Positions 45,825-64,000 of a DNA stretch of 64,000 bases are shown here, in pieces; within the stretch, counting starts at the first letter, position 1; each line of letters begins with the position of its first letter. The stretch spans positions 310,001 through 374,000 of the forward strand of contig NZ_JABETK010000003.1 of assembly GCF_013240295.1 (NCBI RefSeq). The letters are read 5' to 3'. The DNA comes from Neoaquamicrobium sediminum (GTDB lineage Bacteria; Pseudomonadota; Alphaproteobacteria; Rhizobiales; Rhizobiaceae). Position numbers and translations under genes: made by a program. The notes under the pieces are model-generated. The model saw nothing but the letters and a program-made list of their open reading frames with translations, had not been told where the DNA came from and ran no database searches.

Positions 45825-45868
45825 ACCTGTTCAATCCCTGCCGTTCACGGTCAAGCCTCGACTGGCCT

Positions 45869-46876: not shown

Positions 46877-46885
46877 CGCCCTGCC

Positions 46886-47107: not shown

Positions 47108-47802
47108 TCGTAGCGCAATGCCTTGCGGGTGTTCGACATGTCGGTGAGCTTGCGCTGGTTCTCGGCATGCAGGGACTGCACCCCCGCATTGAGGACGCCG
47201 ATCATCTCGTTGAGAGTGAGCCCGGTTTGCACCTGAAGCTGGGTGTTCTGGTCGATTGAGCCTTTGATGTCCCCAGCCTTGCCGATCTCGCCGCCCGCGG
47301 TTTCGAGCGCGGAGCGACGCGCCTCGACCGCCTGCTGGGATCCGTTGATCAGCGCCGACACGCCCATCACCGTTTTCATGAGTTCTTCGTAGGACTTGTC
47401 GCTGGAAAGCGAACCGTCCTCCTTGCCGGACAGCGAACGGACAAGCTGGAGCCCGTTGATGAAGAGCGTCACGGCTTCCACGATCTTGGGATCGAGCGAC
47501 CCGAAATCGGCAGTCCCGCCTTTGAGGAGGTCGTTGAAGGAAGGCATCGACGACACGCTGAAACCGTTGCCGATGGCGATGTCCTTTAGCGGACCGGCAT
47601 CACCGCCGCGCTCTCCGGTCACTGCCTTGAGCGTGTCCTCGACTGTTGTGAGGATCTCCTTGTTGGTGTCGAGGATGTTTGCCGTCTTTTCGGCGGTGTC
47701 ACGCGCGACGGCATAGTTGCTCTTGTCGATGACCGGAATGTCGGCTGCAGCCGGCGAACAGGCCGTGCCGATCAGCGTCAGAATAGCCAGTGCTCGGTTC
47801 AC
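47104..47802 (-). CDS. virB5: VirB5-like minor pilus protein
   Basis: This 232-residue secreted helical protein has signal RALAILTLIGTACSPAAA and long amphipathic helices (KTANILDTNKEILTTVEDTL; IDQNTQLQVQTGLTLNEMIG). VirB5 sits at the pilus tip and contacts recipient cells. The C-terminal QTGLTLNEMIGVLNAG-type segment is characteristic of the family. It lies between a lytic transglycosylase gene and virB7. Confidence 0.82.
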   Translation of the reverse strand: MNRALAILTLIGTACSPAAADIPVIDKSNYAVARDTAEKTANILDTNKEILTTVEDTLKAVTGERGGDAGPLKDIAIGNGFSVSSMPSFNDLLKGGTADFGSLDPKIVEAVTLFINGLQLVRSLSGKEDGSLSSDKSYEELMKTVMGVSALINGSQQAVEARRSALETAGGEIGKAGDIKGSIDQNTQLQVQTGLTLNEMIGVLNAGVQSLHAENQRKLTDMSNTRKALRYE

Positions 47803-47816
47803 GTTGATCTCCTCAA

Positions 47817-48893
47817 TCAGTGCGTTTCAAGAAGCAGTTCGGCCTGCGCGTCGATACGCAGTACACAAGCCGTGGCAGCGTCATCCCAGTCGAAGCCTTG
47901 CCGCGCTTCGCATTGGCCGGCGACCTGTCGTCCATCGTCCTCTTCCTGGCCGCGGTAGTCGGTCGAGCGGTTCGCCCCCGACATGTCGCCGAGCGTCATC
48001 GCGTTGTTGGAATTGATGAGATCCGCGAATGTGGTACCCAATTGGATCAGCCGGTTCATCAGTTCGACATTGGCACCGCGCGCTCCGGAGTTGTGGTCCC
48101 AGCTGTCCTGAATCGTGCCGGTTCCCATCGCTCCCAACTGGTGCAGCCAGGACAAAACGTCGTTGGATCCATCCGCGACCGCTGCAGTCAGGCCCATTGC
48201 GTTGATCGTGCTGGCGCGGGCGCTTTCATAAGCGCTGCCGCCGCCGTAATTCAGGGGAATGCCCGATTTGTCGGAGCCGCCGAAGGCCGGTAGCCACTTT
48301 TGGGTGATGCTCGCCACATAACCTCGCGTTTCCTTGAACGGAGGAATGCCGCCATATTTGCTCACATTGCCGTGGCCGGCATTGTAGGCTGCGAGCGCCA
48401 GCAGGACATTGCCGTCGTAGCGGCGCAGCTGTTGCTTGAAGTAGCGCGCGCCACCGCGAAGGTTCTGTTCGATATTGTGCGGATCGACGCCAAGATCCCC
48501 GGCCGTGCCCGGCATCAGCTGGGCCAGTCCGATCGCGCCCGCGGATGAGTGAGCGCACGGATTGAATCGGCTTTCCTGATAGACGAGCGCCAGGAACTGG
48601 TTCTCGTTTATTCCCTCCTCGCGTGCGATCCTCCGAACCATTCCAGCAATCGCCGGATTGGCATTCGCCGCGCCGATCGGATCGCCCTTGTGGCCATGCC
48701 GGTACATTGAGCACGTTACGCTCTGGTTGTTGATGTAACGGGCCTCGTCGACCTTTTCGATCTCGCCTGTCTTGCGGTCGCGATCGGCGCGTTCGTGGAG
48801 CACCGTGCCGTCGAGGGTCGGAATATCTGCGAAGGCGGGCGACACGGCGATGGCCGGCAGGAGAGCCAAAGGAACGATGTCCAGCATGATCAT
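47817..48893 (-). CDS. Lytic transglycosylase of the T4SS (VirB1 type, copy 2)
   Basis: This 358-residue secreted protein has a signal-like N-terminus (IVPLALLPAIAVSPAFA) and an SLT domain: catalytic glutamate in LVYQESRFNP, then GAIGLAQLMPGTA and ALAAYNAGHGNVSKYGG. It opens peptidoglycan for the channel. An additional C-terminal 130-residue region is Asn/Asp/Gly-rich and unusual. ATG 48893 overlaps the virB4 stop (ATGA). A second transglycosylase gene starts the operon. Confidence 0.88.
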   Translation of the reverse strand: MIMLDIVPLALLPAIAVSPAFADIPTLDGTVLHERADRDRKTGEIEKVDEARYINNQSVTCSMYRHGHKGDPIGAANANPAIAGMVRRIAREEGINENQFLALVYQESRFNPCAHSSAGAIGLAQLMPGTAGDLGVDPHNIEQNLRGGARYFKQQLRRYDGNVLLALAAYNAGHGNVSKYGGIPPFKETRGYVASITQKWLPAFGGSDKSGIPLNYGGGSAYESARASTINAMGLTAAVADGSNDVLSWLHQLGAMGTGTIQDSWDHNSGARGANVELMNRLIQLGTTFADLINSNNAMTLGDMSGANRSTDYRGQEEDDGRQVAGQCEARQGFDWDDAATACVLRIDAQAELLLETH

Positions 48894-51304: not shown

Positions 51305-51306
51305 GA

Positions 51307-51606
51307 TCAAGGTCCGAAGGAGTTCGTGCGCCAGAACAGCCGGTTCCGCGTTCGCGGCGTTCGACGCCCAACCACCTGGGCAATGTCGAGGACGCGCATG
51401 TCGCTCGTGCAAAGCGCAAACAGCGCGAGGTAGATCAGCGGTGCGATCAGTACCGACCAGAAGCTCGAACTCACAAGGAAGGCGATCAGCGTGAAGCCGA
51501 CGATGATGTAGAAGGCGTTCAGCGGGATGCCCCACATCATGGGTGGCCGGGTCAGGCCGATGATCAGCGGCGTCAGTTGAGGTTTCTCGTCGGCGAACCT
51601 GGTCAT
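51307..51606 (-). CDS. virB3: VirB3 inner-membrane T4SS protein
   Basis: This 99-residue protein begins TRFADEKPQLTPLIIGLTRP and has two membrane spans (LNAFYIIVGFTLIAFLVSSS; VLIAPLIYLALFALCTSD). The size and the PPMMWGIP motif are typical of VirB3. It works with VirB4 in pilus formation. The start lies 2 bases after the virB2 stop. Confidence 0.93.
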   Translation of the reverse strand: MTRFADEKPQLTPLIIGLTRPPMMWGIPLNAFYIIVGFTLIAFLVSSSFWSVLIAPLIYLALFALCTSDMRVLDIAQVVGRRTPRTRNRLFWRTNSFGP

Positions 51607-51608
51607 GG

Positions 51609-51944
51609 TCAGCTTCCGACGGCCGCGATCATCTCGTCGACAATCGCAGGTGCTCCAAAGACCAGACCGATGCCGAGCACGACCGCTCCGGCTGTGAACC
51701 AGGAGAGCCGCCCCGCGAAGGCGAGGAAGCCGAGCGCGATGACCGCGATGATCGCCAGCAGGCGTCCGAATGGTCCTGTGATGAAATCGACGATCATCTG
51801 CACGGCGGTCTCGAGCGGTGCGAAGGCGCTGGAGCTCTGCGCAAAGGCGGGTTCCGCGATGGCGAGGCTGGTGAGCAGGATTGCGCTGACCGCTAGCGGG
51901 CGCATCACGACCTGGGTCTTCATCAAATTGGGAATTTCGTTCAT
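51609..51944 (-). CDS. virB2: VirB2 major pilin
   Basis: This 111-residue prepilin has a long signal peptide (PLAVSAILLTSLAIAEPAFAQ, cleavage after AFA) and two hydrophobic helices (LLAIIAVIALGFLAFAGRLS; WFTAGAVVLGIGLVFGAPAI). Length and pattern match VirB2. It makes up the conjugative pilus. It follows the first transglycosylase gene by 12 bases. Confidence 0.93.
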   Translation of the reverse strand: MNEIPNLMKTQVVMRPLAVSAILLTSLAIAEPAFAQSSSAFAPLETAVQMIVDFITGPFGRLLAIIAVIALGFLAFAGRLSWFTAGAVVLGIGLVFGAPAIVDEMIAAVGS

Positions 51945-51956
51945 TGTGACCTCCGG

Positions 51957-52835
51957 CTAGAAATGCATGACCCCGCCGACCCACTGTCGGCGTTCGCGCA
52001 ACGTGATGACCCCGCTGGCATCCCCAGAACCGTGGCCCTCATTCGGTGAGGGCGGCAGCGCGTATGCGGTTGGGCTGCTGCCCGCAAGGCTCAATTTGGC
52101 ATTGAGGACTTGGGCGACGAATTCGACGGTATCCGGCATTGGGGGAATGCCGCGATGCTCCCGCACGCGGCTCTCGCCAGCGTGGTAGGCGGCAGCGACC
52201 AGCAGCGGACTGTGAAACTCGTCGGTCAGTTGGCGCAGGTAGCGCACCCCGACATCGATGCTTTGCGCGGCGTCGCAGATGTCGGTGACGGCGAACCGCT
52301 CGGCGGTATCAGGTGGTAGCCGCATCGGCCAGATCGCATCGGTTGTCGAGCTGTGCTGTCGCTCGAGCCGGCTCTCGGCCGTTGCGACAGCGATGGCAAA
52401 TCGGGGATCGACCTGATGTCGCTGTGCCGCCTCGATGACGAGACGGGCGATTTGTTCGGGTGATACGGGTGAATGATCGCATCGTAAATCGCTGTCAGTT
52501 TCACTACCAATATGGTTGTGAACCGTCTCCGGGCCGGTCGCGCCGGTCGAAGTCGCTCCCCTGGCACCCGTAGGCTCGCCTCTACGAATGACCTGACCGG
52601 ATTCGCTCGGCACGTAGTCGTCCTGCTGCCTCGCCCAGCGCGCTTCGTCAACCGTGTCAGGGGACGGCAGCCCACGACCTTGCAATGCAACTGCGCCTGG
52701 CGGGACGTGGCCTGTCGAGGGTTCAACCAGAGCCTCGGCCGGCATTGCGTGAACCGAAGCAAGCGAAAGGCCACCTGTGATGATGGTCACCGCTATCAGC
52801 GGCGCGGCGGAGAGTGATGATGGCTGCTTCGCCAT
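51957..52835 (-). CDS. virB1: Lytic transglycosylase of the T4SS (VirB1, copy 1)
   Basis: This 292-residue secreted protein has a signal peptide (LIAVTIITGGLSLASVHAMP), a Pro/Thr/Gly-rich linker (RRGEPTGARGATSTGATGPE) and a C-terminal SLT domain with catalytic glutamate in VATAESRLERQ and AAYHAGESRVREHRGIP. It is the first gene of the T4SS operon, facing the divergent secreted-protein genes. The domain is C-terminal, unlike that of copy 2. Confidence 0.85.
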   Translation of the reverse strand: MAKQPSSLSAAPLIAVTIITGGLSLASVHAMPAEALVEPSTGHVPPGAVALQGRGLPSPDTVDEARWARQQDDYVPSESGQVIRRGEPTGARGATSTGATGPETVHNHIGSETDSDLRCDHSPVSPEQIARLVIEAAQRHQVDPRFAIAVATAESRLERQHSSTTDAIWPMRLPPDTAERFAVTDICDAAQSIDVGVRYLRQLTDEFHSPLLVAAAYHAGESRVREHRGIPPMPDTVEFVAQVLNAKLSLAGSSPTAYALPPSPNEGHGSGDASGVITLRERRQWVGGVMHF

Positions 52836-52869
52836 GTTGCATCCCGGAACTGGACGTCGAATGTGGGAA

Positions 52870-52897
52870 TCGATAGGCGAGAGAAAAACAATGTCAA
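52870..52897 (-). promoter_or_regulatory. Candidate sigma-70 promoter of the T4SS operon
   Basis: On the minus strand TTGACA (52897-52892) and TATCGA (52875-52870) are separated by 16 bases and lie 35 bases upstream of the virB1 ATG (52835). The surrounding 80 bases are AT-rich with partial GATTG/CAATC dyads. No other candidate is seen upstream of the operon. Confidence 0.4.
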
Positions 52898-52976
52898 TTT
52901 GATTGTGATTTTTTCTTGCAATCGCAAAAGAGGCGTACCAGTGTCGGGTACGATCAGACGTTGGAGCCGACTCTCA

Positions 52977-53579
52977 ATGAGACGAACAGCCTGTTGCCTG
53001 TTGGCGATTAGCGCGCTTCTGCCAGCTTATGCGGCCGAGCCTGTGGACGAAGCGTACATTCGTTCATTGGCGGCGCCCGGAAGGACGGTGCTGGTCATGG
53101 AATGTTATGACGGTCATGGACAGGTGTCAGAGCGCAAAGGCTATGCCTCCGCGTCGGGCTTCAAGGCCATCTCGGCAACCGCTTTTCGCGTCGCCGCAAA
53201 TTTGACCGTGCGCCTGTTCGGGATCGAGCCGTGTGAGGGCGACATGGTCAACCGGAAGGAGGAATTTGCGGGCACCTGCGACGACTACGCTCGACACGGG
53301 CTGGAAACCCTTCTGCAGTCACCGCGGGTCATCTTCTGCAGGGCTTTTGTCAGCGAGAGCGGCGGGTCCGTACAGAATGCCACCTGTTATGGCTACTATC
53401 ACTATCCAGGCAGCCTCGACACGATCGACATGTTCGAGGAAGAACTGGTCTCGCTCGGCAGCCACCGTATCGCCAAGCGCCCTGACGGGTCGCTGGCGCG
53501 CCCCGACCTCAAGGAGGCCGAGGCTATCGGTCGCCGCGGCTACGGCATGTGGGCGGACCCGAGGGTCGCTGCGCAATGA
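52977..53579 (+). CDS. Secreted degenerate SNase-like protein
   Basis: This protein of about 200 residues has a signal peptide (ACCLLAISALLPAYA). The body resembles a staphylococcal-nuclease fold (ATAFRVAANLTVRLFGIEP, CEGDM; LKEAEAIGRRGYGMWADPR), but conserved nuclease residues appear replaced: the usual D-T-P-E is IEPCE and no DGDT motif is seen. It may be a non-catalytic relative. ATG 52977 is chosen because the signal peptide begins there. The gene is divergent from the T4SS operon and adjacent to a second such protein. Confidence 0.6.
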   Translation: MRRTACCLLAISALLPAYAAEPVDEAYIRSLAAPGRTVLVMECYDGHGQVSERKGYASASGFKAISATAFRVAANLTVRLFGIEPCEGDMVNRKEEFAGTCDDYARHGLETLLQSPRVIFCRAFVSESGGSVQNATCYGYYHYPGSLDTIDMFEEELVSLGSHRIAKRPDGSLARPDLKEAEAIGRRGYGMWADPRVAAQ

Positions 53580-53625
53580 ACGTCCCTCCCCCTCTCCAGA
53601 GCATGGCAGGGCGGGAGTCCATGCC

Positions 53626-54324
53626 ATGACGCGAGCCGTCGGCGTCAGGTCGGGCATGGTCGCGCTGCTGGTGATCGCCTTTACCGGTGCTTCCCATGCG
53701 GCTGATCTGTTGCAGGGCGGTCGAGAACCTTCGGTCGGGATCGGTTCAGTTCCCTACCGCGGCCATGTGACCGAAATCTCTGGCCGCGCAACAATCGTCG
53801 ATGGGCATACTCTGTGGTTTCCGCAGAACGGCCTGGCGGTGCGCTTGGCCTCGATCGACACGTGTGAACTTCCCCAATGGTCCTACGATGCGCGCCGGCA
53901 CGGCGAGAATGCGATCCTTAAGCCGGTGCCTTGCGGTCCGTTGGCGAAGGCGTGGTTGAAGCGGTCGGTGGGTCCTGCTCGCGTGAACTGCGTCGTGCAA
54001 GGCAACGATGGCGATGGCGTTCCTCGCGGCCGCTGCACCGTGAACGGCCGCGACCTCGCATTGGAGATGGTGCGGGTCGGCTGGGCCCGGGCGACTGGGC
54101 AGGCACCCGCGCACTATCTGGCATGGCAGAAGCACGCCATGTCGGCCCGGTACGGCATGTGGGCAACCTACGTGCTCGACATGGACGAGTGGCGCGCAAA
54201 AGCCGCCGACCGGACGCTGTCTCGCCAACCGATCGCCGATTTCAATCTGCTTGCCGAGCGCGGTCTCGAAATCTCCCCGCCGTTTCAGGATGCGCGAAGG
54301 CATCCCCGACGAACTGACCGTTAG
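53626..54324 (+). CDS. Secreted thermonuclease-family (SNase-like) protein
   Basis: This 232-residue protein has a signal peptide (MVALLVIAFTGASHA). SNase motifs are visible: VDGHTLWF in place of DGDT, LAVRLASIDTCELP (Arg35, Asp40, Glu43 equivalents) and VPRGRCTVNGRDLALEMVRV. The metal ligand Asp21 equivalent is His, so activity may be altered. The C-terminal 80 residues are unlike other nucleases. It probably acts in the periplasm or outside, next to the conjugation genes. Confidence 0.72.
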   Translation: MTRAVGVRSGMVALLVIAFTGASHAADLLQGGREPSVGIGSVPYRGHVTEISGRATIVDGHTLWFPQNGLAVRLASIDTCELPQWSYDARRHGENAILKPVPCGPLAKAWLKRSVGPARVNCVVQGNDGDGVPRGRCTVNGRDLALEMVRVGWARATGQAPAHYLAWQKHAMSARYGMWATYVLDMDEWRAKAADRTLSRQPIADFNLLAERGLEISPPFQDARRHPRRTDR

Positions 54325-54352
54325 CTGCTTAGTCGATCAAAGGAGACGGCAC

Positions 54353-54838
54353 ATGCACCGTGTCTGGCAGTTTTCGATTGCCGCCATCATCTCCACGGCC
54401 ACGCTGAGTTCATTCACCGACCGTGCAGCAGCGAGCGAGTGGGGATGCGAGGTGCTTCTTTGTGCATCGTCTTCAGAGCCGTCATGGCGCAGCATTCCTG
54501 CCTGTCATCCACCAATGCACCGACTTATCTCGGCGATGAACAGTTGGGGGTTCTCCTGGCCCACTTGCCCCGAAGCCGGCACGGGTAAACCTGGCTATGA
54601 GGCGTATGACGACTGTCCGGCCGGTTGGAGCGCCGCATCCGGCTTCGAGAACCACGGCGGACGCCAGCAGAATATCTGCGTCCAGGTCCGAAACATCTGC
54701 GACTCACGATCCGGCGGGCGAACAGGCTGTGAGCAAACCGTCACGATGCCACGCCCTTTGCGGCAGGATCCCTATTATTTCGACATCAGACAGCATGACG
54801 GCAATGTCACGCGGCACTGGTTTAGCCTGACCCGGTAG
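54353..54838 (+). CDS. TrbM-like secreted cysteine-rich protein
   Basis: This 161-residue protein has a signal peptide (IAAIISTATLSSFTDRAAA) followed by SEWGCEVLLCASSSEPSWRS and CHPPMHRLI, then CPEAGTGKPGYEAYDDCPAG. The cysteine spacing and the CEVLLC-type start are like TrbM domains of conjugative systems. TrbM's function is unsettled. It ends the group of three secreted-protein genes read away from the T4SS. Confidence 0.58.
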   Translation: MHRVWQFSIAAIISTATLSSFTDRAAASEWGCEVLLCASSSEPSWRSIPACHPPMHRLISAMNSWGFSWPTCPEAGTGKPGYEAYDDCPAGWSAASGFENHGGRQQNICVQVRNICDSRSGGRTGCEQTVTMPRPLRQDPYYFDIRQHDGNVTRHWFSLTR

Positions 54839-54897
54839 CAAGCAGCACGAATGCCGGTTGCCGGCCCCGCATGCGGCCGTGCCGACGCGCTGTTTGG

Positions 54898-55257
54898 TTA
54901 CAGGGAACGGCGCGATCTCGAACCGAGAGCTTCGGCCAAATGCGACCCGAAGGGGCGCAAGGTCGTGACCGCCTGTTGCACGTCATTGAGGCGTAAGGGT
55001 GCCGCCTTGGAAGTCATGAGCGCCATCACGTAGATCAGCTTTTCGTACGCATCTTCAGCAGTTGCCGGCTTGGATGAAAGCAGATGCGAATAAGCGCGCT
55101 TCTCACGCCAGCGATAGTAGATCAGCATTGGATAGCGCAGACGCAACTTCGTCTGCTCATGACGCCTATCCAGTGCGATCCGTTCAGCCCGAGATCGCTT
55201 GTGACTTGCGATCTTCGACGACATCGTCTTGTCGGATCGCGTGAATAGTCCAAGCAT
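54898..55257 (-). CDS. Unknown basic protein, about 119 residues
   Basis: ATG 55257 begins MLGLFTRSDKTMSSKIASHK and continues basic and helical (LRLRYPMLIYYRWREKRAYS; AEDAYEKLIYVMALMTSK). There is no recognised domain. It is convergent with the TrbM-like gene and divergent from the PduX-like kinase, sharing the gap with a palindrome at 55330. Coding-like codon choice and conserved-looking helices support it. Confidence 0.5.
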   Translation of the reverse strand: MLGLFTRSDKTMSSKIASHKRSRAERIALDRRHEQTKLRLRYPMLIYYRWREKRAYSHLLSSKPATAEDAYEKLIYVMALMTSKAAPLRLNDVQQAVTTLRPFGSHLAEALGSRSRRSL

Positions 55258-55329
55258 GCTTTGCTTACCGTGCTGAGTCCAAAGTCCACGTCCGCAATGC
55301 GCGAGGGGATACTGGCGGTCGCTGAGGAC

Positions 55330-55343
55330 CTCCCGTACGGGAG
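55330..55343. promoter_or_regulatory. Candidate lux-box-like palindrome
   Basis: The perfect palindrome CTCCCGTACGGGAG lies within ACCTCCCGTACGGGAGAG, resembling the ACCT...AGGT outline of lux boxes. It lies between the unknown minus-strand gene and the PduX-like gene, 145 bases from the latter's start. About four perfect 14-mers are expected per 64 kb by chance, so only the context, a nearby luxR/luxI, supports it. Confidence 0.35.
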
Positions 55344-55487
55344 AGAATGGTGCCATTCCGGCTGCGCTGCATCCGTCGGGCCAGTGAACCGCGCGATCAA
55401 AACCTGGTCTATGCCGGAATTCCGTGACGGCACCCAGTTACCGTCGACGCCACGATCATCTCCGACGCGCAACACCGGGAGTGTATC

Positions 55488-56425
55488 GTGCTTGCAGTCT
55501 CCAGATTGTCGCGGATCAATGAACCGTTATCTCTAGAGGGCGTCGGCACTGCGATGGCTCATCACGGAGAGCTTCTGCAAGGCGTGTTCGAAGTCGGGAA
55601 CGGACGGCTTCATCGCGGACTGGTTACCCTGCCTCTCCCGGCGATGATGTCGCGAGCGACATTTATTGCCACCCGGTCAACTGACATCGCGGTGCGCCCG
55701 TATGGCAGGGCAAAGGCCGGCGTGGCGGCGCGGCGCACGCTCGATCATCTGGCTATCGCCGAAGGCGGTGCGGTCGAGATCGTAAGCGACATCCCTATCG
55801 GTCACGGCTATGGTTCCTCCACTGCCGATGTCGTTGCCGTTATTCGAGCGGTTGCGGATGCCTACTGTGCACACCTTCAGCCTTCGCGAATCAGCCAGTT
55901 GGCGGTCGCCGCGGAAAAAGCCAGCGATGCCATCGCCTTCGGCGAACAGGCGTTGCTCTTCGCGCAGCGACAGGGCGTCGTTCTGGAGCACTTTGGCGGT
56001 GCGTTGCCGCCCCTGCTCTTGGTCGGGTTCAAGACCCGTGACGGACTGCCGATAGACACACTCAATCTGCCTCCTGCACGCTACGAGCAAGCGGAAATCC
56101 AGCAATTCCGTGTCCTGCGGGGGTGGTCGCCCATGCCGTACGCTATCAGGATCCCAACTGCCTTGGCCGTGCGGCAACCGCCAGCGCACGGATCAGTCAG
56201 CGGCATCTGCCCAAGGAGCATTTCGACCAGGTCATGGCCATTGCCGAAGACGCCGGCGCCTGCGGCGTTCAGGTCGCCCATAGCGGCTCGTTGATCGGCA
56301 TTATTTTCGACCGCACCGCAAAGAACCTGCGGCAGCGCGCTGGTCGGGTCGCGGGATTGGCAAAGCGGCTGGGTTTTGGAGATGTCGCGTTTCACCCGAT
56401 AAATGACGACGGCGCGAGATGGTAG
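55488..56425 (+). pseudogene. PduX-like GHMP kinase (L-threonine kinase family), frameshifted
   Basis: Repaired length is about 312 residues. HHGELLQGVFEVGNG (GELIQG-type substrate motif), the phosphate loop IPIGHGYGSSTADVVAVIRA and the C-terminal VQVAHSGSLIGIIFDR match PduX, which phosphorylates L-threonine to O-phospho-L-threonine in cobalamin side-chain synthesis. No cobalamin genes are nearby. The frame breaks at the five-G run 56119-56123; one more G gives LRGVVAHAVRYQDPN. The end overlaps the PLP-enzyme start by 7 bases. The GTG start at 55488 is tentative. Confidence 0.82.
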
Positions 56426-57456
56426 CTTTGGACGCCGACTACTTCCGTGAGCTCGAGACCCCGCGCATTGCGGTGTTGTCTGACAATCTGGTCGCAGCGG
56501 TGTTCCCTCTGATGAAGCTCATGCCGGCCAGATACATCCTGGACCGTGCCGCGGCGGACGGCTCACTTCGGCCCGGCCACCGCATCGTCGAGTCAACATC
56601 CGGAACATTCGGCATGGCTCTCGCGCTGCTGGCGGCGGCGCGCGGATACCGGCTCACGCTCGTCACCGCTTCGAGCCTCATCGACGCAAAGTATCGAGCG
56701 CGCCTGGAAGGGAGCGGTGCCAGGATGATCGTAACCGAAGATCCCGACGGCAATGGCGATCAGATGCGGCGTCTGCAGGAACTGCAGCGCATTCGCAGCG
56801 AGGAACCGCATTGCTTCTGGCCAAGGCAATATGACAATCCCCAAAACGCGCTGTCCTATGCAGGTCTGGCCGAAACGCTCGTGCGATCGATGGGCAGGAT
56901 TGACTGCCTTGTAGGCTGCGTGGGAAGCGGCGGCTCGCTATGCGGGACAGGAGCATTTTTGCGTATGATCTTTCCGCAGATGTCCATCATCGCGGTCGAC
57001 ACGCACCGCAGCATCCTGTTCGGGCAACCTGTCGGCCGCCGGTTGTTGCGTGGTCTCGGCAACAGTGTATTGCCCGCCAATCTAGACCACGAACTTGTCG
57101 ACGAAGTGCACTGGGTTGGCGCATACCCGGCATTCAGGGGCGCTCGCGACTTGTTACGCGAACATGGCATATTCCAGGGTCCGACCAGTGCTGCTGCCGC
57201 ACTCGTCGCCAGGTGGACCGCCGACAATCGTCCCGGGGCCCGCGTCGCAGTCATCATGCCGGACGAGGGCCACCGCTACGCCGATACCGTTTTTGACGAC
57301 GCCTGGCTTGCCTCGCTTCCTGGATGGCCAAGTGCATCGCCTTCCAAACCCCGAATGCTGACCACCCTCGAGCCCGCGTCGGAGACAGAGTGGACGCGAT
57401 TTGCCTGGGCAAGACGCAGCCTCGATCAGGTGCGCCAAGCGCAATCTATGCACTAA
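56419..57456 (+). CDS. Cysteine-synthase-like PLP enzyme (fold type II)
   Basis: This 345-residue protein starts with VALDADYFRELETPRIAVLS. The PLP lysine is probably K33 in FPLMKLMPARYILDR, aligning with the Lys of SVKDR, followed by VESTSGTFGMALAL and the phosphate-binding VGSGGSLCGTG. The classical substrate loop is shortened. Such enzymes do beta-replacement or elimination on O-activated amino acids. Overlap with the threonine-kinase gene suggests it acts on O-phosphothreonine. Confidence 0.78.
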   Translation: MVALDADYFRELETPRIAVLSDNLVAAVFPLMKLMPARYILDRAAADGSLRPGHRIVESTSGTFGMALALLAAARGYRLTLVTASSLIDAKYRARLEGSGARMIVTEDPDGNGDQMRRLQELQRIRSEEPHCFWPRQYDNPQNALSYAGLAETLVRSMGRIDCLVGCVGSGGSLCGTGAFLRMIFPQMSIIAVDTHRSILFGQPVGRRLLRGLGNSVLPANLDHELVDEVHWVGAYPAFRGARDLLREHGIFQGPTSAAAALVARWTADNRPGARVAVIMPDEGHRYADTVFDDAWLASLPGWPSASPSKPRMLTTLEPASETEWTRFAWARRSLDQVRQAQSMH

Positions 57457-58854
57457 AGGTTTCTGCGCGACTGGCGGCAGGCATTGCCGGCGTCTCAAGC
57501 AGTCCGGTATCCTTGTCGCGGAGCCATTCCCAAGCCTCGCCGGTAGATTGAAAAATCGTCTTGTGCGTGGGGCTCGTGACCGATTGATCGAGGTCCTTCA
57601 GGCCGCTGGCGGTGACGATTGCCACAACGCGGTCGTCATCGGCGATAACGCGCTGCCTGCGCAATTCTGCGATCGCCAGCAGGGGCGTGACCGACGCCAG
57701 TTCAGCGAATATGCCCTCCATGCGTGCCAGGCGCTCCTGCATCTCGACCAGCCCGTCATTCTTCACCGGAACCGCGCTTCCGGAGGAGTCGCGCAGCGCC
57801 TTCAGAGCCTGGTAGGTGCTGCGCGGGGCGCCGATCGAAATGGCGCGGCTTTCGAATTCCATCCTACGCTCTTCGAGCCTGTCACTGCCTGTGGCAAGCG
57901 CCTGCGCCAGAGAGCCATGCACCTCGGCAGCCACCATTCGCGGCAGCCGCGGGATCGCGCCCTGCGCAAACAATTCCTCGAATCCCGACCAAACACCCGA
58001 CAGTGCGTCTCCGTAACAGACGGGGAGCACGCACCAGTCGGGGGCAATGCCGCCCGACTGCTCGACGATTTCATAAGCGATGGTCTTGTAGCCCTCGATG
58101 CCCAGGGCGTGGCTGCCAACGACAGGCGCTTGATAGGGCGAAGCCACGAACCAGCCATGGCGTTCCGCTGCTTGGGCAAGCAAGGCCCATCGATCCATCT
58201 TGTTGGCGAGCGGCAGAACCGTTGCGCCGTACTTCCTGATCTGCGCCAGCATCGCTTCAGCGGAGCCGCCAAAGGTGGCGACAACACAACGCAGACCCGC
58301 GCGCGCAGCGTAAGCAGCCAGTGAGGCGCCGGCGTTACCGGAAGAAGCCGTCGCCACGACCTTTGCTCCCTGCGCCCTGGCCACCGACACTGCAACCGTT
58401 GAAAACCGGTCCTTGTGCGACCAGGTCGGGTTACGGCCCTCGTCCTTGATGAAGAGGTTCGCAACTCCCAATAGTCGGCCGATCCGGCTCGTTTCAACCA
58501 AGGGCGTCTGCCCTTCCCCGAGCGAAACGGCGTCTTCCGCCGAGCAAGGCAGAGCATGGGCATAGCGCCACAACGATCGCGGTGGATTCGCCGCGATCGA
58601 TAGCGGATCAGCGGTTGAGGCATAGACGGGTCTGAGATTGGCCGGCGCGGTTTCGTGACAGGCCGGACAGCCCCTTGAATCGATCTCGACCGTGGCCGGA
58701 TAGGACCTGCCGCAGCGAATGCAGGTGAGCCCGACGACGGTGCCTCCCCCGGCACCACGGCCATATCGGTTCCAGTGATTTTTGCCTTCCGAGGGTGTGC
58801 GGAATTTGGTTCCGAGAGGCCTGCGCGAAGCGTGCTAAGGGGTTGACTGGCCAT
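57446..58854 (-). pseudogene. Threonine-synthase-like PLP enzyme, frameshifted near the N-terminus
   Basis: The body (about 469 residues repaired) has a zinc-ribbon N-terminus (LTCIRCGRSYPATVEID; GCPACHETAP), GEGQTPLVETSRIG, PLP lysine in NPTWSHKDRFSTVAVS and the phosphate loop ATASSGNAGASLAAYA. It resembles class II threonine synthase (O-phosphohomoserine to threonine). The first residues from ATG 58854 (MASQPLSTLRAG) are out of frame with the rest; the break lies between 58818 and 58837. It is convergent with the previous gene, overlapping by 11 bases. Confidence 0.76.
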
Positions 58855-58980
58855 GGCAATTCCTCCGTGCAGGATCGTTCATCCACGCCTCGGTTCAAAC
58901 AGGCGGTGATGCCGCTGTCAATGCGGAATGTTCACTAGAGTGTGTCGCACCATAGTGTGCATCGGCGCACTGCTTGCAGG

Positions 58981-59246
58981 ATGAATCTTCGCGCTGTGTT
59001 GGGTCTGAACGTGCAACGGCTCCGCCGGGGAAAAGGGCTGTCTCAGGAGCAGCTTTCTTTCGCCGCGGGCGCACGCGGGCGTATATCAGCAGCGTGGAAG
59101 CCGGCCGGCAAAACGCTACGCTGGATACGCTGGCAGCCCTGGCGAAGGCGCTGGACGTTGAGCCGAAGGACCTCATCACTGCAACAGCACCGAAGCGTCA
59201 CACTGGACGCTCAACCAAGCAGCCAGCGCGTGGCTCACGGAACTGA
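58981..59246 (+). pseudogene. Small XRE-type regulator, frameshifted
   Basis: Repaired length is about 88 residues. ATG 58981 reads LRAVLGLNVQRLRRGKGLSQ and ELSFAAG-type HTH start; after one missing base at 59066-59073 the frame continues RTRAYISSVEAGRQNATLDT and ALAKALDVEPKDLI. This is a complete minimal HTH XRE domain. It lies divergent from the threonine-synthase-like gene and upstream of luxR, so it may regulate either. Confidence 0.68.
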
Positions 59247-59412
59247 AGCTCCGCGTTTACAACCTGCGGCATGCCGACCAAAAAATAGTGCCTTCCTTGA
59301 CTCCTACAGTAGACAATCGACGTCCGCGGCGTTGAAGCCGGTTGCGGAACACGCTTAGGTTGAAGAAGTGGGGTGTTCAGGTTGAAGCTGCGGGGCATGT
59401 CGAGGTTTATCG

Positions 59413-60140
59413 ATGAACAACGCTGCCGTTGGAGAGCTTTTCGCTGCGATATCGGCGATCGACGATTCAACTTCGTCTGATCGCGCACTCGAAGTATTTC
59501 AGGGCGTTCTCATCGGTACGGCCTGCAGCGTTTTCTGATCACGGGATTGCCGGTCCCTCAGGACAGCGAATGGCATCGTGAGATCCTTCATGACGGGTGG
59601 GCGAGCGAATGGTTCGCCCGCTACGAATCCGAGGGGCACTTCCTTTACGATCCTTGCGCCGCACGCAGCCGTCTCGCGGCCGAGCCGTTCCTCTGGCATG
59701 AACTGCGCGCTGGTCGTCTGACAACACGTGCCAGTCTGGTGATGGACGAGGCCGCCGAATTTGGCATGAAGGACGGCTTATGTGTGCCAATCCATATGCC
59801 GCTGTCTGGACCGGCTGTGGTGACGGCAGCAAGCGATCGGATGGAGATACCACCCGGCACGATGCCTCTGTTCGAAGCGCTGTGTGTTCACCTCTTTCGT
59901 AAAATAAGCTGCTTGGAAAGCAGACCGGGTACCGAGGAGTGTAAGCCCCTGACGCCGAGGGAGCGCGAACTCCTGCAATGGAGCGCAGACGGTAAATCGG
60001 CCGACGATATTTCCTGCATCCTCGGCGTAACGACGAATACGGTGGAGAGCCATCATCGCAACATCCGCGAGAAGCTGAACGCCATCAATGTGGCCCATGC
60101 CATCGTGAAAGCACTGCGAAGGCATGAAATTCAGATTTAG
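59413..60140 (+). pseudogene. LuxR-family quorum-sensing regulator, frameshifted
   Basis: Repaired length is about 242 residues. The N-terminal autoinducer-binding domain (MNNAAVGELFAAISAIDD; LQRFLITGLPVPQDSEWHRE; WFARYESEGHFLYDP) and C-terminal HTH (LTPRERELLQWSADGKSADD; VTTNTVESHHRNIREKLNA) are typical LuxR. One base is missing at 59516-59520 (IG-YGLQRF). As read, translation would stop at codon 41. It lies directly upstream of luxI and is expected to respond to its AHL product. Confidence 0.86.
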
Positions 60141-60187
60141 CTATACCGAAATTCCGGGATGCTTTTTCCGAACGCATTCGCCTACCA

Positions 60188-60209
60188 CGCCTCCATTTGG
60201 CTGGAGGCG
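60188..60209 (+). promoter_or_regulatory. Hairpin covering the luxI ribosome-binding site
   Basis: A perfect 8-bp stem CGCCTCCA/TGGAGGCG with a 6-base loop places the Shine-Dalgarno GGAGG (60203-60207) inside the stem, ending two bases before ATG 60212. If the luxR-luxI transcript includes it, folding would hide the site and limit AHL-synthase translation. Confidence 0.55.
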
Positions 60210-60211
60210 TC

Positions 60212-60835
60212 ATGGTTCGTATTCACGTGGTCACTTGGGCCAACAGGAAACAGTACAGGGTCTTGCTGGAGCGCTATTTTCGCATCCGCTACGACATATA
60301 TGTGAAGCGACGACAATGGCGTTCCGTGGCACGACCCATCAACATCGAAATGGATGCGTTCGACACCGAACATGCCATCTACCTGATGGCGCTCGATAGC
60401 GCCGGCAAGATCGTCGGCGGCTCGCGTCTCGTCCCGACCTTACAGCCTCACCTCCTGGGCGATGTGTTTCCGCAACTCGCAGTCGCGGGGCCACCGCGGG
60501 CGTCGGATATCTATGAATGGACGCGCTTCTTCATCGATCCCGCCCTGCGCAGCCGCGGCTCCCCGTCGCCGGTCGCCGGCGTTGTTCTCTGCGGCCTACT
60601 CGAGGTCGCCCTGAAACTCGGCATTCGCCAGATCAGTGTCGTCTGTGAATCGTTCTGGCCAAAGCGTCTGCGTGCCCTTGGATGGAGCATTGCTGAGCTG
60701 GGAGATGTCGTGCAGCACGAGGACGGCGACATCATCGCGCTGTTGATCGATGTCACGCCGGATGCAATCGGGAGCACTCGCCGCGCCTACCGCATCGACC
60801 GGCCGGTCGTGATCGATTTACCATCGCCGGCATGA
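60212..60835 (+). CDS. Acyl-homoserine-lactone synthase (LuxI family)
   Basis: This 207-residue protein carries the LuxI invariant features: Arg in FRIRYDIYVKRRQW (with the Phe and Trp), Asp in NIEMDAFDTEHAIYLM, Arg in VGGSRLVPT and the acidic YEWTRFFID followed by RSRG. It makes an AHL signal from SAM and an acyl-ACP; the chain length is not predictable. ATG 60212 is chosen because it follows GGAGG by four bases. It is paired with the upstream luxR. Confidence 0.9.
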   Translation: MVRIHVVTWANRKQYRVLLERYFRIRYDIYVKRRQWRSVARPINIEMDAFDTEHAIYLMALDSAGKIVGGSRLVPTLQPHLLGDVFPQLAVAGPPRASDIYEWTRFFIDPALRSRGSPSPVAGVVLCGLLEVALKLGIRQISVVCESFWPKRLRALGWSIAELGDVVQHEDGDIIALLIDVTPDAIGSTRRAYRIDRPVVIDLPSPA

Positions 60836-61031
60836 CGGTTCCCGACGGTGCCGCCCGAAGGTCGTTCATTAGAATCGCTACCTGAGGCCGCCGGCCGCGA
60901 TCTCATCCGCGCCGTCAGGATGCCCTTCGCACCCGTGACGCCATAGTCGGTCAATCCCCGGATTCCGTGAGACTGGTCTGCATGACTGGATGCCAGGATG
61001 ATGATCAGTCTGACCGTTCGGAGTGGGAGAG

Positions 61032-61556
61032 ATGACAGTCACATTGCGTGTGCTTGGGCTCGACGATGAGGCTGTTGTTGCCGACATCGCCGTCGACCCC
61101 GACAAGGCGGCTTACGCCGGTGGGCCAATTGGCGACATCTTCGATCAGCTACGAGCCTCCCCGCCGCGCCAGACCCCCTTTGCACTCGCCGATGGCGACC
61201 GGGTGGTGGGGTTCATCGTTGCACGGGAAAAAGCAGCCCTGCCCGTCTGGGCGGAGGCAGGCTGCATGACGCTGAACAATCTGCGGATCGACACACGCCT
61301 GCAAGGGCGCGGCTACGGCAAGGCTGCGATCCGCCTCGCCGCGCAATGGATCTCACGGGAACGGCCGGATGTCACACATGTGATGTCGAGCGTGAACGTC
61401 GCCAATCTCGCTGCTTTCCATTTGAACCTTGCCTGCGGCCTGACGCCCACGGGGCGGATTTTCGACGGACGCATCGGTCCACAAAGGCTCATGATCGCCC
61501 CCGTCGAGCGCGTTTGTGGCGATCAGCCCGGATCGACGTCGACCAGAAGCTTGTAG
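61032..61556 (+). CDS. GNAT-family N-acetyltransferase
   Basis: This 174-residue protein has the GNAT acetyl-CoA-binding motif (LRIDTRLQGRGYGKAAIRLA: Q/R-x-x-G-x-G/A) and a following helix with HVMSSVNVANLAAFHLN. The substrate is unknown. The gene converges on the deacylase gene with a 34-base overlap, so its last residues (DQPGSTSTRSL) lie antisense to the deacylase end. A purine-rich GGGAGAG site precedes ATG 61032. Confidence 0.84.
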   Translation: MTVTLRVLGLDDEAVVADIAVDPDKAAYAGGPIGDIFDQLRASPPRQTPFALADGDRVVGFIVAREKAALPVWAEAGCMTLNNLRIDTRLQGRGYGKAAIRLAAQWISRERPDVTHVMSSVNVANLAAFHLNLACGLTPTGRIFDGRIGPQRLMIAPVERVCGDQPGSTSTRSL

Positions 61557-62536
61557 AGGCAATCACCTGGCTCGGTCAGCATCGGCGCGCGCCGGCAGGC
61601 AACCATGCCTCCTTCGGTGAATGCGACCGGTTCCGGCGCTTCCCACGGCCGATGGATGGTGTGAATGACCCCGGCGAGCTGGCCAGCTTGCACGACCTCG
61701 CCCATACGCGCCGCCGGTTCGAACAGGCCCTTGCGCATCGCGTAGACGAAGGCGCCCCTGCCCCGCACGCGCATGAAGCGGGTGGGCGATGCGGGGCCGG
61801 AATCCTCGCCTTGCAGAATTCCATAACGCTGCAGGACACGCCGCAACCCTTGCTCTGCAATGGCAAGGCCCGCCCGCGAGAGGGTGGCCCCACCGCCGAG
61901 TTCGGCGGTGAGCACCGGCACACCAAGGCCCTGGCCTGCTGCCGAAAACGTTGTCATGCCGCCTCCACCTGAGCCATCGCTGATGGAGGTAATCGGGGCA
62001 GCGAACGCGGTCGCAAGGTCGGTAAGCTCACGATTTTCGTCTGGCCCGCCACCACTTCTGATCAAGGCGCACGGGAGGTAGTGGCACGAGCGACCACCGG
62101 CATGAAGGTCGATGGCGACATCGGCCATGGCGAGAAGCACCGTGGTGACATAATGCGCGATCATCGCCGTCGGCTCGCCAACCGGATCGCCCGGAAACGA
62201 TCTGTTGAGATTGCCGTCGTCCAGAGGTGACACGCGCCGGCCCGCCTCGACGGCGGGCGTGTTCAGTGAAGGCAGAATGATGATCCGGCCGCGAACATCC
62301 GCTGCTTCGATCTCGCGGCACAGGCGCGCAAGCGCAACCTGCCCCTCATATTCGTCGCCATGGTTGCCACCGACAAGAAGAGCCGTGGGCCCTGCACCGT
62401 TTCGGATGCACACAATCGGGATTGGCACCACGCCGTAACCCGATAAATCCGTTGAATGGGGCACGCGCAGCCAGTCGCACTGCCTCCCATCCGCCTCGAA
62501 ATCGAGCGGCGTCCAAACCTGCGTCGAACCTGTCAT
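61523..62536 (-). CDS. Succinylglutamate desuccinylase/aspartoacylase-family deacylase (DoeB-like)
   Basis: This 337-residue zinc carboxypeptidase-like deacylase has ligands in GGNHGDEYEGQ (His, Glu) and DVAIDLHAGGRS (second His), plus GNLNRSFPGDP. It resembles DoeB, which deacetylates N-acetyl-2,4-diaminobutyrate in ectoine breakdown. The other ectoine genes are not in the window, so only N-acyl-amino acid deacylation is inferred. It follows the ABC ATPase gene by 10 bases. Confidence 0.78.
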   Translation of the reverse strand: MTGSTQVWTPLDFEADGRQCDWLRVPHSTDLSGYGVVPIPIVCIRNGAGPTALLVGGNHGDEYEGQVALARLCREIEAADVRGRIIILPSLNTPAVEAGRRVSPLDDGNLNRSFPGDPVGEPTAMIAHYVTTVLLAMADVAIDLHAGGRSCHYLPCALIRSGGGPDENRELTDLATAFAAPITSISDGSGGGGMTTFSAAGQGLGVPVLTAELGGGATLSRAGLAIAEQGLRRVLQRYGILQGEDSGPASPTRFMRVRGRGAFVYAMRKGLFEPAARMGEVVQAGQLAGVIHTIHRPWEAPEPVAFTEGGMVACRRAPMLTEPGDCLYKLLVDVDPG

Positions 62537-62546
62537 TGACGTCCTC

Positions 62547-63295
62547 TCAGTGCTTCAGGATCTTTTCGAGAAAAAGCCGCGAGCGGGGATGTCCCGCCGA
62601 GCCGAAGAAGTCGCGGGAGGATGCGCTGTCGAGGATGCATCCCCGTCCATAAAGACGACCTGGTCAGCGACTTCCCGCGCAAAGCCCATCTCATGGGTGA
62701 CGCAGACCATCGTCATGCCGTCGCGGGCCAGCGTGACCATGACGTCGAGGACCTCCTTGATCATTTCCGGATCGAGCGCCGATGTCGGTTCGTCAAAGAG
62801 CATGATGCGAGGGTTGAGGCACAGTGCCCGTGCAATCGCCACGCGCTGCTGTTGTCCGCCGGAGAGCTGGCCGGGATAGGACTTCGCCTTCTCAGGTATT
62901 CTGACCTTTTCCAGATGGGCCATGGCGATGTCTTCCGCTTCCGCGCGGCTCCGGCCGGCGACGCGCCGCAGCGCCAGCGTGCAATTGGAGAGCACCGTCA
63001 GATGCGGAAACAGGTTGAAGCTCTGAAACACCATCCCGGTCTGGCGCCGCGCGCGCGCCGTCTCCCTGGCATTGAGACCGAGCATCGTCCCCGCAAGACG
63101 CAACGTGCCCTGCTGATAGGTTTCCAGCCCATTGATGCAGCGGATAAGGGTCGATTTGCCTGAACCCGACGGCCCGCACACCACGACGCGCGTACCGCTT
63201 CCAACTGTCAGGTCGACGTTTTTCAGCACGTGCAGGGCGCCGAACCATTTGTTGAGACCCTGGATGTCGACGATGGTATCCGATTGTGTGCTCAT
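62547..63295 (-). pseudogene. Polar amino acid ABC transporter ATP-binding protein, frameshifted at the 3' end
   Basis: Repaired length is about 249 residues. Walker [20 protein letters not shown], signature [15 protein letters not shown], Walker [15 protein letters not shown] and [20 protein letters not shown] identify the HisP/GlnQ class. The normal C-terminus ([20 protein letters not shown], then FLEKILKH) is in another frame; the break is at the four-C run 62641-62644, where one more base restores it. ATG 63295 begins [14 protein letters not shown]. Confidence 0.87.
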
Positions 63296-63354
63296 GCCCT
63301 CTCCTGATTTCTCGTGGATCTTCGTCGACCAGCATTCCATCGGCGGCGTCATGG

Positions 63355-64000
63355 TCATCGTGCGCCCACCGCGAGGAGCCGCCGTTCCAGACGTTTGACG
63401 CCGTGGGAAATGGCGAGCGCCAGCACCAGGAAGATGATGCCGGCGACGACCAGCGGCTCGGTATACCGATACGTCTCCGAGGCGATATCGAAGGCCTGGC
63501 CCAGCATTTCCGGAACCGCGAGCACTGCCAGGTAAGGCGTCGCCTTGAGGATCGAGACGAAGTAGTTGCCGAGCGGAGCCGCGATGTTTCGCAACATCTG
63601 CGGCGCGATGACATGGATGACCGCATCGCGCCGGCTAAGCGACAGCGCACGCGCTGCTTCCGACTGACCCCTCGGGATGGCATCGATCCCCGCCTTGAAC
63701 ACCTCGGCCAGATAGCCGCTGTAATAGAGACTGAGACCCATGACGCCGACTGTCATGGAGCCGAGGCGAATGCCGTAGAACGGGAGGACGAAGTAAAGAA
63801 AATAGAGCCACGCCAATACCGGCGTCGACCTGATGAAATCGATCACGAAACCAATCGTGAGGCCGGCGATGCCACCGACCCGGTGTACCATCTCGAAGAG
63901 AAAGCCGGTTGCAGCTGCACCAATGCAACTGACGAGCGCAACGAACAGGGTCGTGCCCACCGCGCCTAGGATTATCGGTACGCTGGACAATGCGAAGGCC
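63355..64000 (-). CDS. Polar amino acid ABC transporter permease (HisM family), 5' end near the window edge
   Basis: The frame covers at least 211 residues with several membrane spans ([60 protein letters not shown]) and the EAA loop ([20 protein letters not shown]). TTG 63990 is the first possible start, but in-frame codons continue to base 64000, so the true start may be outside. It forms the pore for the neighbouring ATPase; no binding protein is visible. Confidence 0.87.

Follow-up and report, generated by a model that had tools for sequence, protein, structure and literature searches.

Why would a quorum-sensing gene pair be joined to a kinase and a pyridoxal phosphate (PLP) enzyme of amino-acid type? 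The question is raised by a 64,000-nucleotide stretch of the Neoaquamicrobium sediminum genome (contig NZ_JABETK010000003.1, positions 310,001 to 374,000; the whole stretch is called the window here), in which genes for a PduX-like kinase and an SbnA-like PLP enzyme are followed by a convergent threonine-synthase-like (ThrC-like) gene and by xre, luxR, and luxI. Our answer, which we favor tentatively, is that this cassette may specify a quorum-controlled pathway, often carried on mobile elements, whose product would be a 2,3-diamino acid. This product would most probably be of 2,3-diaminobutyrate type and would be N-acetylated in lineages that carry a GNAT acetyltransferase gene, the window included. 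The chemistry is predicted from homology, a gene fusion, and gene neighborhood. The genes and candidate sites at the center of the proposal are as follows (ORF, open reading frame; PWM, position weight matrix; HSL, homoserine lactone).

55411..55428, no strand: lux-box-like palindrome 5' of the kinase-PLP operon; second-best PWM site in the 64-kb window
55488..56425, + strand: PduX-like GHMP kinase, split between ORFs 55488-56294 and 56123-56425 by a broken frame in this assembly; Pfam GHMP_N and GHMP_C
56419..57456, + strand: SbnA/cysteine-synthase-like fold-II PLP enzyme; TIGR03945 at 214.9 bits; best PDB match SbnA (5d87/5d84)
57446..58792, - strand: threonine-synthase-like PLP enzyme; ORF 57446-58573, homology reaching 58792
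58929..58941, no strand: operator-like site ACTNTAGTG between the divergent thrC-like and xre genes, from a motif count over loci
58974..59246, + strand: Xre-family regulator, frame broken in this assembly; 65-69% to Aminobacter Xre by tblastn, in two frames; weak ClgR match
59412..60140, + strand: LuxR-family regulator (Autoind_bind and GerE); ORF 59547-60140, the N-terminal frame being broken in this assembly and the start placed by extrapolation from relatives
60143..60160, no strand: lux-box-like palindrome 5' of luxI; the window's top PWM site
60212..60835, + strand: acyl-HSL synthase LuxI; Autoind_synth; nearest to acyl-CoA-type enzymes
60954..60971, no strand: lux-box-like palindrome 5' of the GNAT gene; the window's third-best PWM site
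61032..61556, + strand: GNAT N-acetyltransferase by Pfam; homologue of the domain that two Burkholderiales plasmids carry as a fusion to the PLP enzyme

ORFs and family scans bear out the content, order, and strands of the six genes from kinase to luxI as a first-pass annotation of this DNA had given them; the lux boxes, the Xre operator-like site, the downstream GNAT, DoeB-like, and ATP-binding cassette (ABC) transporter genes, and an adjacent type IV secretion operon go beyond it. The convergent thrC-like gene closes the kinase-PLP transcript at its downstream end, and the window LuxR is 79% identical to that of locus L034 over residues 35-241.

We hypothesize the following sequence of events. 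LuxI would make an acyl-HSL, and LuxR with this signal would act at lux boxes to switch on luxI, the kinase-PLP operon, and the acetyltransferase gene. The PduX-like kinase would phosphorylate the hydroxyl of threonine (or serine), and the SbnA-like enzyme would expel the phosphate and add an amine at C3, giving a 2,3-diamino acid or an N-substituted form, one amine of which the GNAT would acetylate. A DoeB-like deacylase, an M24 hydrolase, and ABC or tripartite transporters, which stand beside some copies, would together with the ThrC-like enzyme, acting as a lyase, serve re-uptake and degradation of the product, and Xre would set the divergent ThrC block separately via its own operator.

Conservation of the Gene Set

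A search of genome contigs with the PLP enzyme returned 55 loci, 31 of them close (L040-L070). In 29 of the 31, luxI is present (the contig stops after luxR in L058 and inside the PLP gene in L069), and the kinase is likewise present in 29, L061 and L064 beginning inside the PLP gene. All six genes are near full length in 30 of 35 loci (the misses are L046, L058, L061, L064, and L069), their distance matrices correlate (r 0.80-0.95), and gene order is fixed across genera. On plasmids, luxI lies ~3-4 kb from the PLP gene in 14 of 16 listed records with a PLP identity of at least 63% over nearly the full length (H10 and H16 are without it). Starting from LuxI at an identity of at least 43%, kinase and PLP genes are adjacent in 14 of 17 records; the other three are a Paracoccus saliphilus plasmid whose kinase gene lacks an annotated PLP neighbor, a record with GNAT, DoeB-like, and ABC genes only, and a record whose kinase is ~39 kb away if the molecule is circular. 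The kinase of this last record sits at its opposite end.

A sample of 394 family genomes holds 27 places with the PLP enzyme at E<=1e-60, 24 of them at an identity of at least 56%. LuxI is found within ~8 kb on the same contig at 19 of these 24 close places; it is missing at G348, G466, G004, the second copy in G560, and G469, as well as at the three more distant places. In G469, LuxI is on a different contig of a 1070-contig assembly. Seen from the LuxI side, the PLP enzyme is near in 19 of 23 rows at an identity of at least 44% (not in G350, G327, G469, and G603). Since these samples partly coincide with the named loci and are related among themselves, they are not independent draws. In a class-level sample, the kinase profile found its own genome and one weak match among 190. 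The co-occurrence search that the first-pass annotation had suggested as a check therefore returns a conserved neighborhood in related genomes.

Two plasmids carry related pieces. That of Paracoccus saliphilus (L108:3950-18600) has genes for Lrp, an AceE-like protein, the kinase, LuxR, LuxI, and LysR beside a trb conjugation operon; no PLP gene is annotated there, and its best lux-box-like site precedes luxI. Plasmid pSR3 of Aminobacter SR38 (L110:8191-16344) has a related LuxR-LuxI pair with GNAT, semialdehyde dehydrogenase, aspartoacylase-family, and Ehu-like ABC genes, no annotated kinase or PLP enzyme, and no strong lux-box-like site.

Candidate LuxR and Xre Sites

That the pathway would be under density control, as was first supposed, is well supported by conserved lux-box-like sites at the luxI, kinase, and GNAT promoters. 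When 34 luxR-luxI intergenic regions are aligned, an 18-bp palindrome stands directly after the luxR stop codon; it is degenerate in some loci and unrecognizable in L062. In the window it is centered 60.5 nt upstream of the luxI ATG, and in the I1 circuit of Mesorhizobium japonicum an inverted repeat lies 61.5 bp upstream of the start codon (PMC10470506). A PWM was built from the luxI boxes, with the box under test left out each time and L062 excluded from the model, and was applied to kinase genes over a span reaching from 200 nt upstream to 40 nt downstream of the start, with starts extrapolated from the Aminobacter kinase. A kinase box was found at p<0.05 in 31 of 36 loci, centered 64-73 nt upstream of the start in 20 of the 36.

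A rerun covered 34 loci and dropped any upstream region truncated at a contig end; each p-value refers to a single locus, and the loci are related to one another. Kinase boxes pass in 29/34 at p<0.05 and in 16/34 at p<=0.01, and the GNAT box passes in 7/12 at p<0.05 and likewise in 7/12 at p<=0.01; an earlier run had given 15 for the kinase, 7 for GNAT, and 0 for the controls at p<=0.01. Eight control gene types together give 8/170 at p<0.05 (thrC 0/35, xre 3/35, luxR 1/35, doeB 0/7, ehuA 1/18, transketolase-like 0/17, lrp 0/17, IclR 3/6) and 0/170 at p<=0.01; the IclR and xre passes come mostly from one common stretch that contains the putative Xre operator. For luxI itself the counts are 33/34 at p<0.05 and 31/34 at p<=0.01 (32/34 in the earlier run), which is partly circular since relatives' luxI boxes are in the model.

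Within the window, the luxI (24.4), kinase (18.1), and GNAT (14.9) boxes are the three best PWM scores in 64 kb. In 20 shuffled windows the best score averaged 14.2 and reached 19.1 at the highest, so that the case for the kinase and GNAT sites draws on their place and conservation as well as on score. The window kinase box is centered 68.5 nt upstream of the kinase start (shuffle p 0.0033), and the GNAT box (p 0.007) stands at an equal distance in L034, L036, L040, L061, and L064. The loci in which the GNAT box is missed are L039, L055, L056, L057, and L062, and in these five the GNAT gene is close behind luxI. A conserved inverted repeat, the hallmark of a LuxR regulon, is thus present at the luxI, kinase, and GNAT promoters, and LuxR is predicted to bind there.

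Wider lux control was considered and rejected. No site at p<=0.01 precedes the ThrC-like, DoeB-like, ABC, Lrp, transketolase-like, or IclR genes, and no site in the type IV secretion operon is among the window's 12 best, which disfavors direct lux control of that operon. A second sequence, ACTNTAGTG, occurs at most 160 nt from xre in 30 of 35 loci and four times elsewhere in 654 kb, in counts for which the pattern was picked after the sites had been seen. We infer that it is a putative Xre operator of the divergent ThrC-like block. In locus L054 a perfect 20-bp palindrome between xre and luxR (12874-12893) holds the core of this motif.

Mobile-Element Setting

VirB-like type IV secretion genes occupy positions 40106-52835 of the window on the - strand and end directly upstream of the cassette. 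The window VirB4 shares 90% identity with its Aminobacter sp. MSH1 counterpart, and the virB neighbors on the MSH1 plasmid are matched, gene for gene in order, in L040, which represents the same region in a close relative. Annotations of the Aminobacter MSH1 and Bosea vestrisii plasmids show the order virB4-virB3-virB2-transglycosylase followed by hypothetical-thermonuclease-thermonuclease. Conjugation genes lie within ~10 kb in 14 of 40 loci (one by a weak match, three being the sources of the queries), and the link to mobile elements is frequent and not universal. Such a link would be expected if the quorum and metabolic genes were co-selected passengers of conjugative elements with no regulatory tie between them, but the lux boxes at kinase and GNAT promoters are far above the control genes and gene order is fixed across genera, and we consider this reading extremely unlikely.

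The Kinase and the PLP Enzyme

The kinase is of PduX type rather than ThrB type, in line with its first reading. With a profile (A1) of 17 related kinases, Klebsiella PduX scores 117.8 bits, E. coli ThrB 28.1, and the genome's only other GHMP-kinase locus 12.7. By tblastn the kinase groups with proteins annotated as L-threonine kinase (30% over 91% for Klebsiella, whose gene adjoins cobD, and 31.7% over 62% for Salmonella PduX), and the motifs GEL.QG and AHSG are in common with PduX. No PduX structure is among the six PDB sequence matches, all mevalonate kinases, or among the 50 fold matches listed, which are generic GHMP proteins. The cassette shares the kinase family with PduX of cobalamin synthesis but differs in its beta-replacement-type partner and in its context: neither a cobalamin gene, whose absence had been pointed out at the start, nor a propanediol linkage is found on the kinase-PLP transcript, the window as a whole not having been scanned. 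A role in cobalamin synthesis is disfavored by the lack of cobalamin genes on the transcript and by the position of the genome's best CobD-like match, which is below the cut-off and on another contig.

On a Rhizobium leguminosarum plasmid (L109:7220-9696), another member of this kinase family adjoins genes for a nucleotidyltransferase and a CDP-alcohol phosphatidyltransferase, in what is a different pathway. Since the neighbors differ there, the substrate cannot be read from the kinase family alone.

For the PLP enzyme, the best NCBIfam model is SbnA, whose cut-off of 349.95 bits is well above the window protein's score. The equivalents of SbnA Lys47, Arg132, and Tyr152 (K33, R118, and Y138 in the window) are invariant in 14 of 14 copies, whether quorum-linked or not. 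The analogy of the pair to the dab genes of actinomycetes, drawn in the first-pass annotation, is supported by distant relatives: in Azospirillum, Sulfuriferula, and Streptomyces NBC_01351 and NBC_01707, homologous kinase-PLP pairs are accompanied by genes for an ATP-grasp protein and an argininosuccinate-lyase-like protein, and in S. globosus the lyase is present and an ATP-grasp domain is fused to the PLP enzyme. The three Streptomyces loci also hold adenylation genes of nonribosomal peptide synthetase (NRPS) type. We take the set of kinase, PLP enzyme, lyase, and ATP-grasp protein to be the 2,3-diaminobutyrate gene set. The literature on 2,3-diaminobutyrate genes gives support of a general kind only. 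For the mureidomycin pathway, a 2,3-diaminobutyrate synthase with L-Thr as its substrate is cited in PMC3179956.

A Sulfuriferula nivalis plasmid (L099:1-18981) combines a kinase-PLP-ATP-grasp-lyase operon with genes for PhzF, a second ATP-grasp protein, and an aspartoacylase-family protein. An acyl-HSL synthase gene lies ~8 kb from this operon, possibly an independent quorum link.

LuxI and Its Signal

Among solved structures in the PDB, compared by score and without a tree, the nearest LuxI relatives are 6wns (336 bits), RpaI (145), and BjaI (115), with LasI at 31.5. We presume 6wns to be the Mesorhizobium enzyme described by Dong et al. 2020. Judged by these nearest relatives, the acyl-HSL is probably made from acyl-CoA. 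Known acyl-CoA users fall in one clade (PMC4234381), and Dong et al. 2020 is cited for the names of the Mesorhizobium luxI genes in PMC10470506. The cassette is present on pMLb of M. japonicum MAFF 303099.

An acyl-CoA-type LuxI would also fit a reading in which the enzymes serve the signal itself, by supplying an unusual acyl-CoA or by modifying the acyl-HSL within a multi-component circuit. A crotonase-family gene beside I1 of M. japonicum provides a precedent for such a circuit (PMC10470506), and an AceE-like gene, with an Lrp regulator, is found in 17 of 37 loci by clustering, mostly in Mesorhizobium. However, several lineages have kinase-PLP pairs without luxI within 7-9 kb, and a path from phospho-amino-acid chemistry to acyl-CoA is not obvious. 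We therefore regard this reading as very unlikely.

Predicted Acetylation, Uptake, and Degradation

Downstream of the GNAT gene, the window continues on the opposite strand.

61523..62536, - strand: DoeB-like deacylase, aspartoacylase family; TIGR02994 at 259 bits, cut-off 402.7
62555..63358, - strand: amino-acid/ectoine-type ABC ATPase, frame broken near the end; GlnQ 269.5 and EhuA 245.1 bits, both below cut-offs
63355..63990, - strand: predicted ABC transporter permease after the ATPase (ORF); permeases at the same place in L034 and L036

The GNAT model has a pLDDT of 90.5, and its fold search returned generic amine acetyltransferases. On plasmids of Cupriavidus taiwanensis and Paraburkholderia phymatum, the PLP enzyme itself has a C-terminal GNAT domain that is 35-41% identical to the cassette GNATs, and the Cupriavidus plasmid carries within 9 kb an M24 peptidase gene and a DoeB-like gene (57% to that of the window). 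The best PDB match of the DoeB-like protein is 3cdx (E 5e-68), annotated as succinylglutamate desuccinylase/aspartoacylase; the second best is 6twl (E 7e-63), an N-acetyl-L-2,4-diaminobutyrate deacetylase. Acetylation may be a lineage feature.

The ThrC-like protein falls under all NCBIfam threonine synthase cut-offs listed: scores run from 208.7 (window) to 218.5 (Bosea vestrisii) against 303 for NF006050, and from 132.3 to 151 against 167.1 for TIGR00260. The Aminobacter protein is without Arg/Asn residues that are present in both aligned threonine synthases (2zsj and 6cgq), at positions that we take to be the phosphate site of the enzyme. Its gene stands beside M24, IclR, and ABC or tripartite transporter genes in L059, L063, L065, L066, L068, L070, Agrobacterium pusense, and Bosea vestrisii. 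The missing residues and this transporter-peptidase-IclR block in eight other loci suggest that the enzyme is probably not biosynthetic, and we predict that it is a degradative lyase; the scores and residues likewise disfavor a true threonine synthase. A scheme of acyl-HSL recycling, in which a homoserine kinase and the ThrC-like enzyme would convert homoserine through phosphohomoserine to threonine, is disfavored both by the lack of these residues and by a kinase nearer to PduX than to ThrB.

A threonine-synthase-like gene adjoining a phospho-amino-acid enzyme pair, with homologous pairs in peptide-type clusters, could also indicate an antimetabolite of threonine or phosphohomoserine metabolism, with the ThrC-like protein as a resistant stand-in and the GNAT for self-protection. 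Yet a resistant stand-in is hard to reconcile with scores below the cut-off of each model listed, with the loss of residues common to the two aligned threonine synthases, and with the gene's place in a transporter-peptidase-IclR block in eight other loci, and we judge this explanation distinctly unlikely.

Weighing the Proposed Diamino Acid Pathway

Several observations weigh against a quorum-controlled 2,3-diamino acid pathway. First, the kinase box fails in 5/34 loci; p exceeds 0.05 in L037, L039, L058, L060, and L063, and in L062 and L066, which pass the test, the best site is too near the start codon. Second, the ThrC-like and uptake genes are without a lux box at p<=0.01, and in MAFF 303099 the circuits other than R1-I1, three of the four luxI, are described as apparently silent in the laboratory (PMC10470506). 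Third, of 36 loci 12 were found to have the GNAT gene and 8 the DoeB-like gene, and our confidence is lowered because these are a minority. Fourth, of the residues named as responsible for selective O-phosphoserine binding in SbnA, namely Arg132, Tyr152, and Ser185 (PMC12414870), the last is replaced by Gly in 14 of 14 copies, a change that could make room for the methyl group of phosphothreonine. Finally, the expected partners are missing: no lyase or ATP-grasp gene is found in the ~7-10 kb flanks of the Hyphomicrobiales loci, and no SbnB gene near the cassette, the nearest OCD-family gene being ~283 kb away on the same contig.

The gap in partners extends further. No such lyase is found in the fetched stretches of Agrobacterium pusense, Bradyrhizobium, Cupriavidus, Paraburkholderia, and Mesorhizobium INR15, nor a Lyase_1 gene on the window's contig; of the 2,3-diaminobutyrate cassette, kinase and PLP enzyme are present and an argininosuccinate-lyase-like gene is not seen in flanks or contig. 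Because a releasing partner, SbnB or lyase, was not found nearby, the product of the PLP enzyme may be an adduct. The enzyme could then couple an amino acid, for example glutamate or aspartate, with phosphothreonine or phosphoserine, so that the end product would be an opine-like secondary amine used as a private nutrient, a metallophore, or a signal. SbnA makes such an adduct (PMC12414870), no SbnB- or ArgH-type partner is found near the cassette, and importers and hydrolases stand beside some copies; the PLP-GNAT fusion and the GNAT lux boxes, however, suggest that a free amine gets acetylated, and we hold the opine-like adduct to be rather unlikely. The GNAT and DoeB-like counts make it, like the antimetabolite reading, slightly more probable than before.

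We continue to favor, tentatively, the 2,3-diamino acid pathway. The first-pass annotation had envisaged a density-controlled route from threonine via O-phosphothreonine to an unusual amino acid or signal. This view is partly supported: density control by the lux boxes, the analogy to the dab genes by the distant relatives, and the link between the genes by the conserved neighborhood. That the substrate would be threonine in preference to serine is a prediction, as are the amine donor and the product.

Disrupted Reading Frames

Relatives carry intact copies of the genes that are broken in this assembly. The kinase is split, with GHMP-N in ORF 55488-56294 and GHMP-C in ORF 56123-56425 in a different frame, and homology searches show frame changes in xre, in luxR, and in the gene for the ABC ATPase. 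In the ThrC-like gene the conserved frame, including a zinc-ribbon-like part, is preserved and open to ~58792 without a start codon, and the N-terminal lead with the start codon is in another frame. Each of these five disturbances coincides with a one-base gap relative to L040, an Aquamicrobium metagenome-assembled genome of 95% identical DNA that served as the reference for this comparison; four of the five gaps are inside runs of identical bases, and that of the kinase directly follows one. Over positions 46914-64000 the alignment with L040 has 22 small gaps, several of which are paired shifts, and the genome's best CobD-like gene is split likewise. The broken frames are probably errors of a long-read assembly, with decay as the alternative.

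Relation to Known Systems and Significance

A close parallel is with the 2,3-diaminobutyrate cassettes of actinomycete peptide antibiotics, namely pacidamycin Pac17-19 and friulimicin dab. They likewise pair a PduX-like kinase with a cysteine-synthase-like PLP enzyme, but around the Hyphomicrobiales copies no lyase, ATP-grasp, or NRPS gene is found, and luxRI and in part a GNAT gene stand there instead. SbnA/SbnB of staphyloferrin B, which serve diaminopropionate, share the PLP family and the Lys47, Arg132, and Tyr152 equivalents; the cassette differs in its score below the cut-off, its Ser185 to Gly change, its PduX-like kinase, and the lack of an SbnB nearby. From ectoine degradation (DoeA/DoeB and the Ehu ABC transporter) come the likenesses of the DoeB-like deacylase, the Ehu-like ABC genes, and, in related loci, the M24 hydrolase, but scores are below the equivalog cut-offs and no ectoine synthesis gene is among the genes scanned. 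The RpaI, BjaI, and I1 circuits are the nearest in LuxI and, for I1, in an inverted repeat ~61 nt before luxI (PMC10470506), whereas here the circuit is tied to an amino-acid pathway. No description of this combination was found in the titles and abstracts of the literature searched, which agrees with the first-pass annotation.

The opine and rhizopine systems of Ti and Sym plasmids resemble the cassette in that putative synthesis and catabolism genes are together on mobile elements; the cassette differs in being bacterium-made, in its predicted quorum control, and in its chemistry, and its feeding role is putative. A speculative extension, which we regard as rather doubtful, is that mobile elements make dense hosts produce and acetylate a diamino acid that only carriers would import, deacylate, and degrade, a self-made opine-like currency that would favor carriers and possibly transfer.

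The cassette is borne by soil and root-nodule bacteria, often on plasmids, and because the model symbiont M. japonicum MAFF 303099 carries it on pMLb, it is directly testable. The little-characterized circuits of acyl-CoA-type LuxI gain in it a concrete predicted regulon, a diamino acid route, and the kinase-PLP pair of peptide-antibiotic clusters is extended to rhizobial plasmids and, in two Burkholderiales plasmids, to a fusion of PLP enzyme and acetyltransferase. If it is true that carriers also consume the product, the system would be a bacterium-made, quorum-controlled analogue of the opines.

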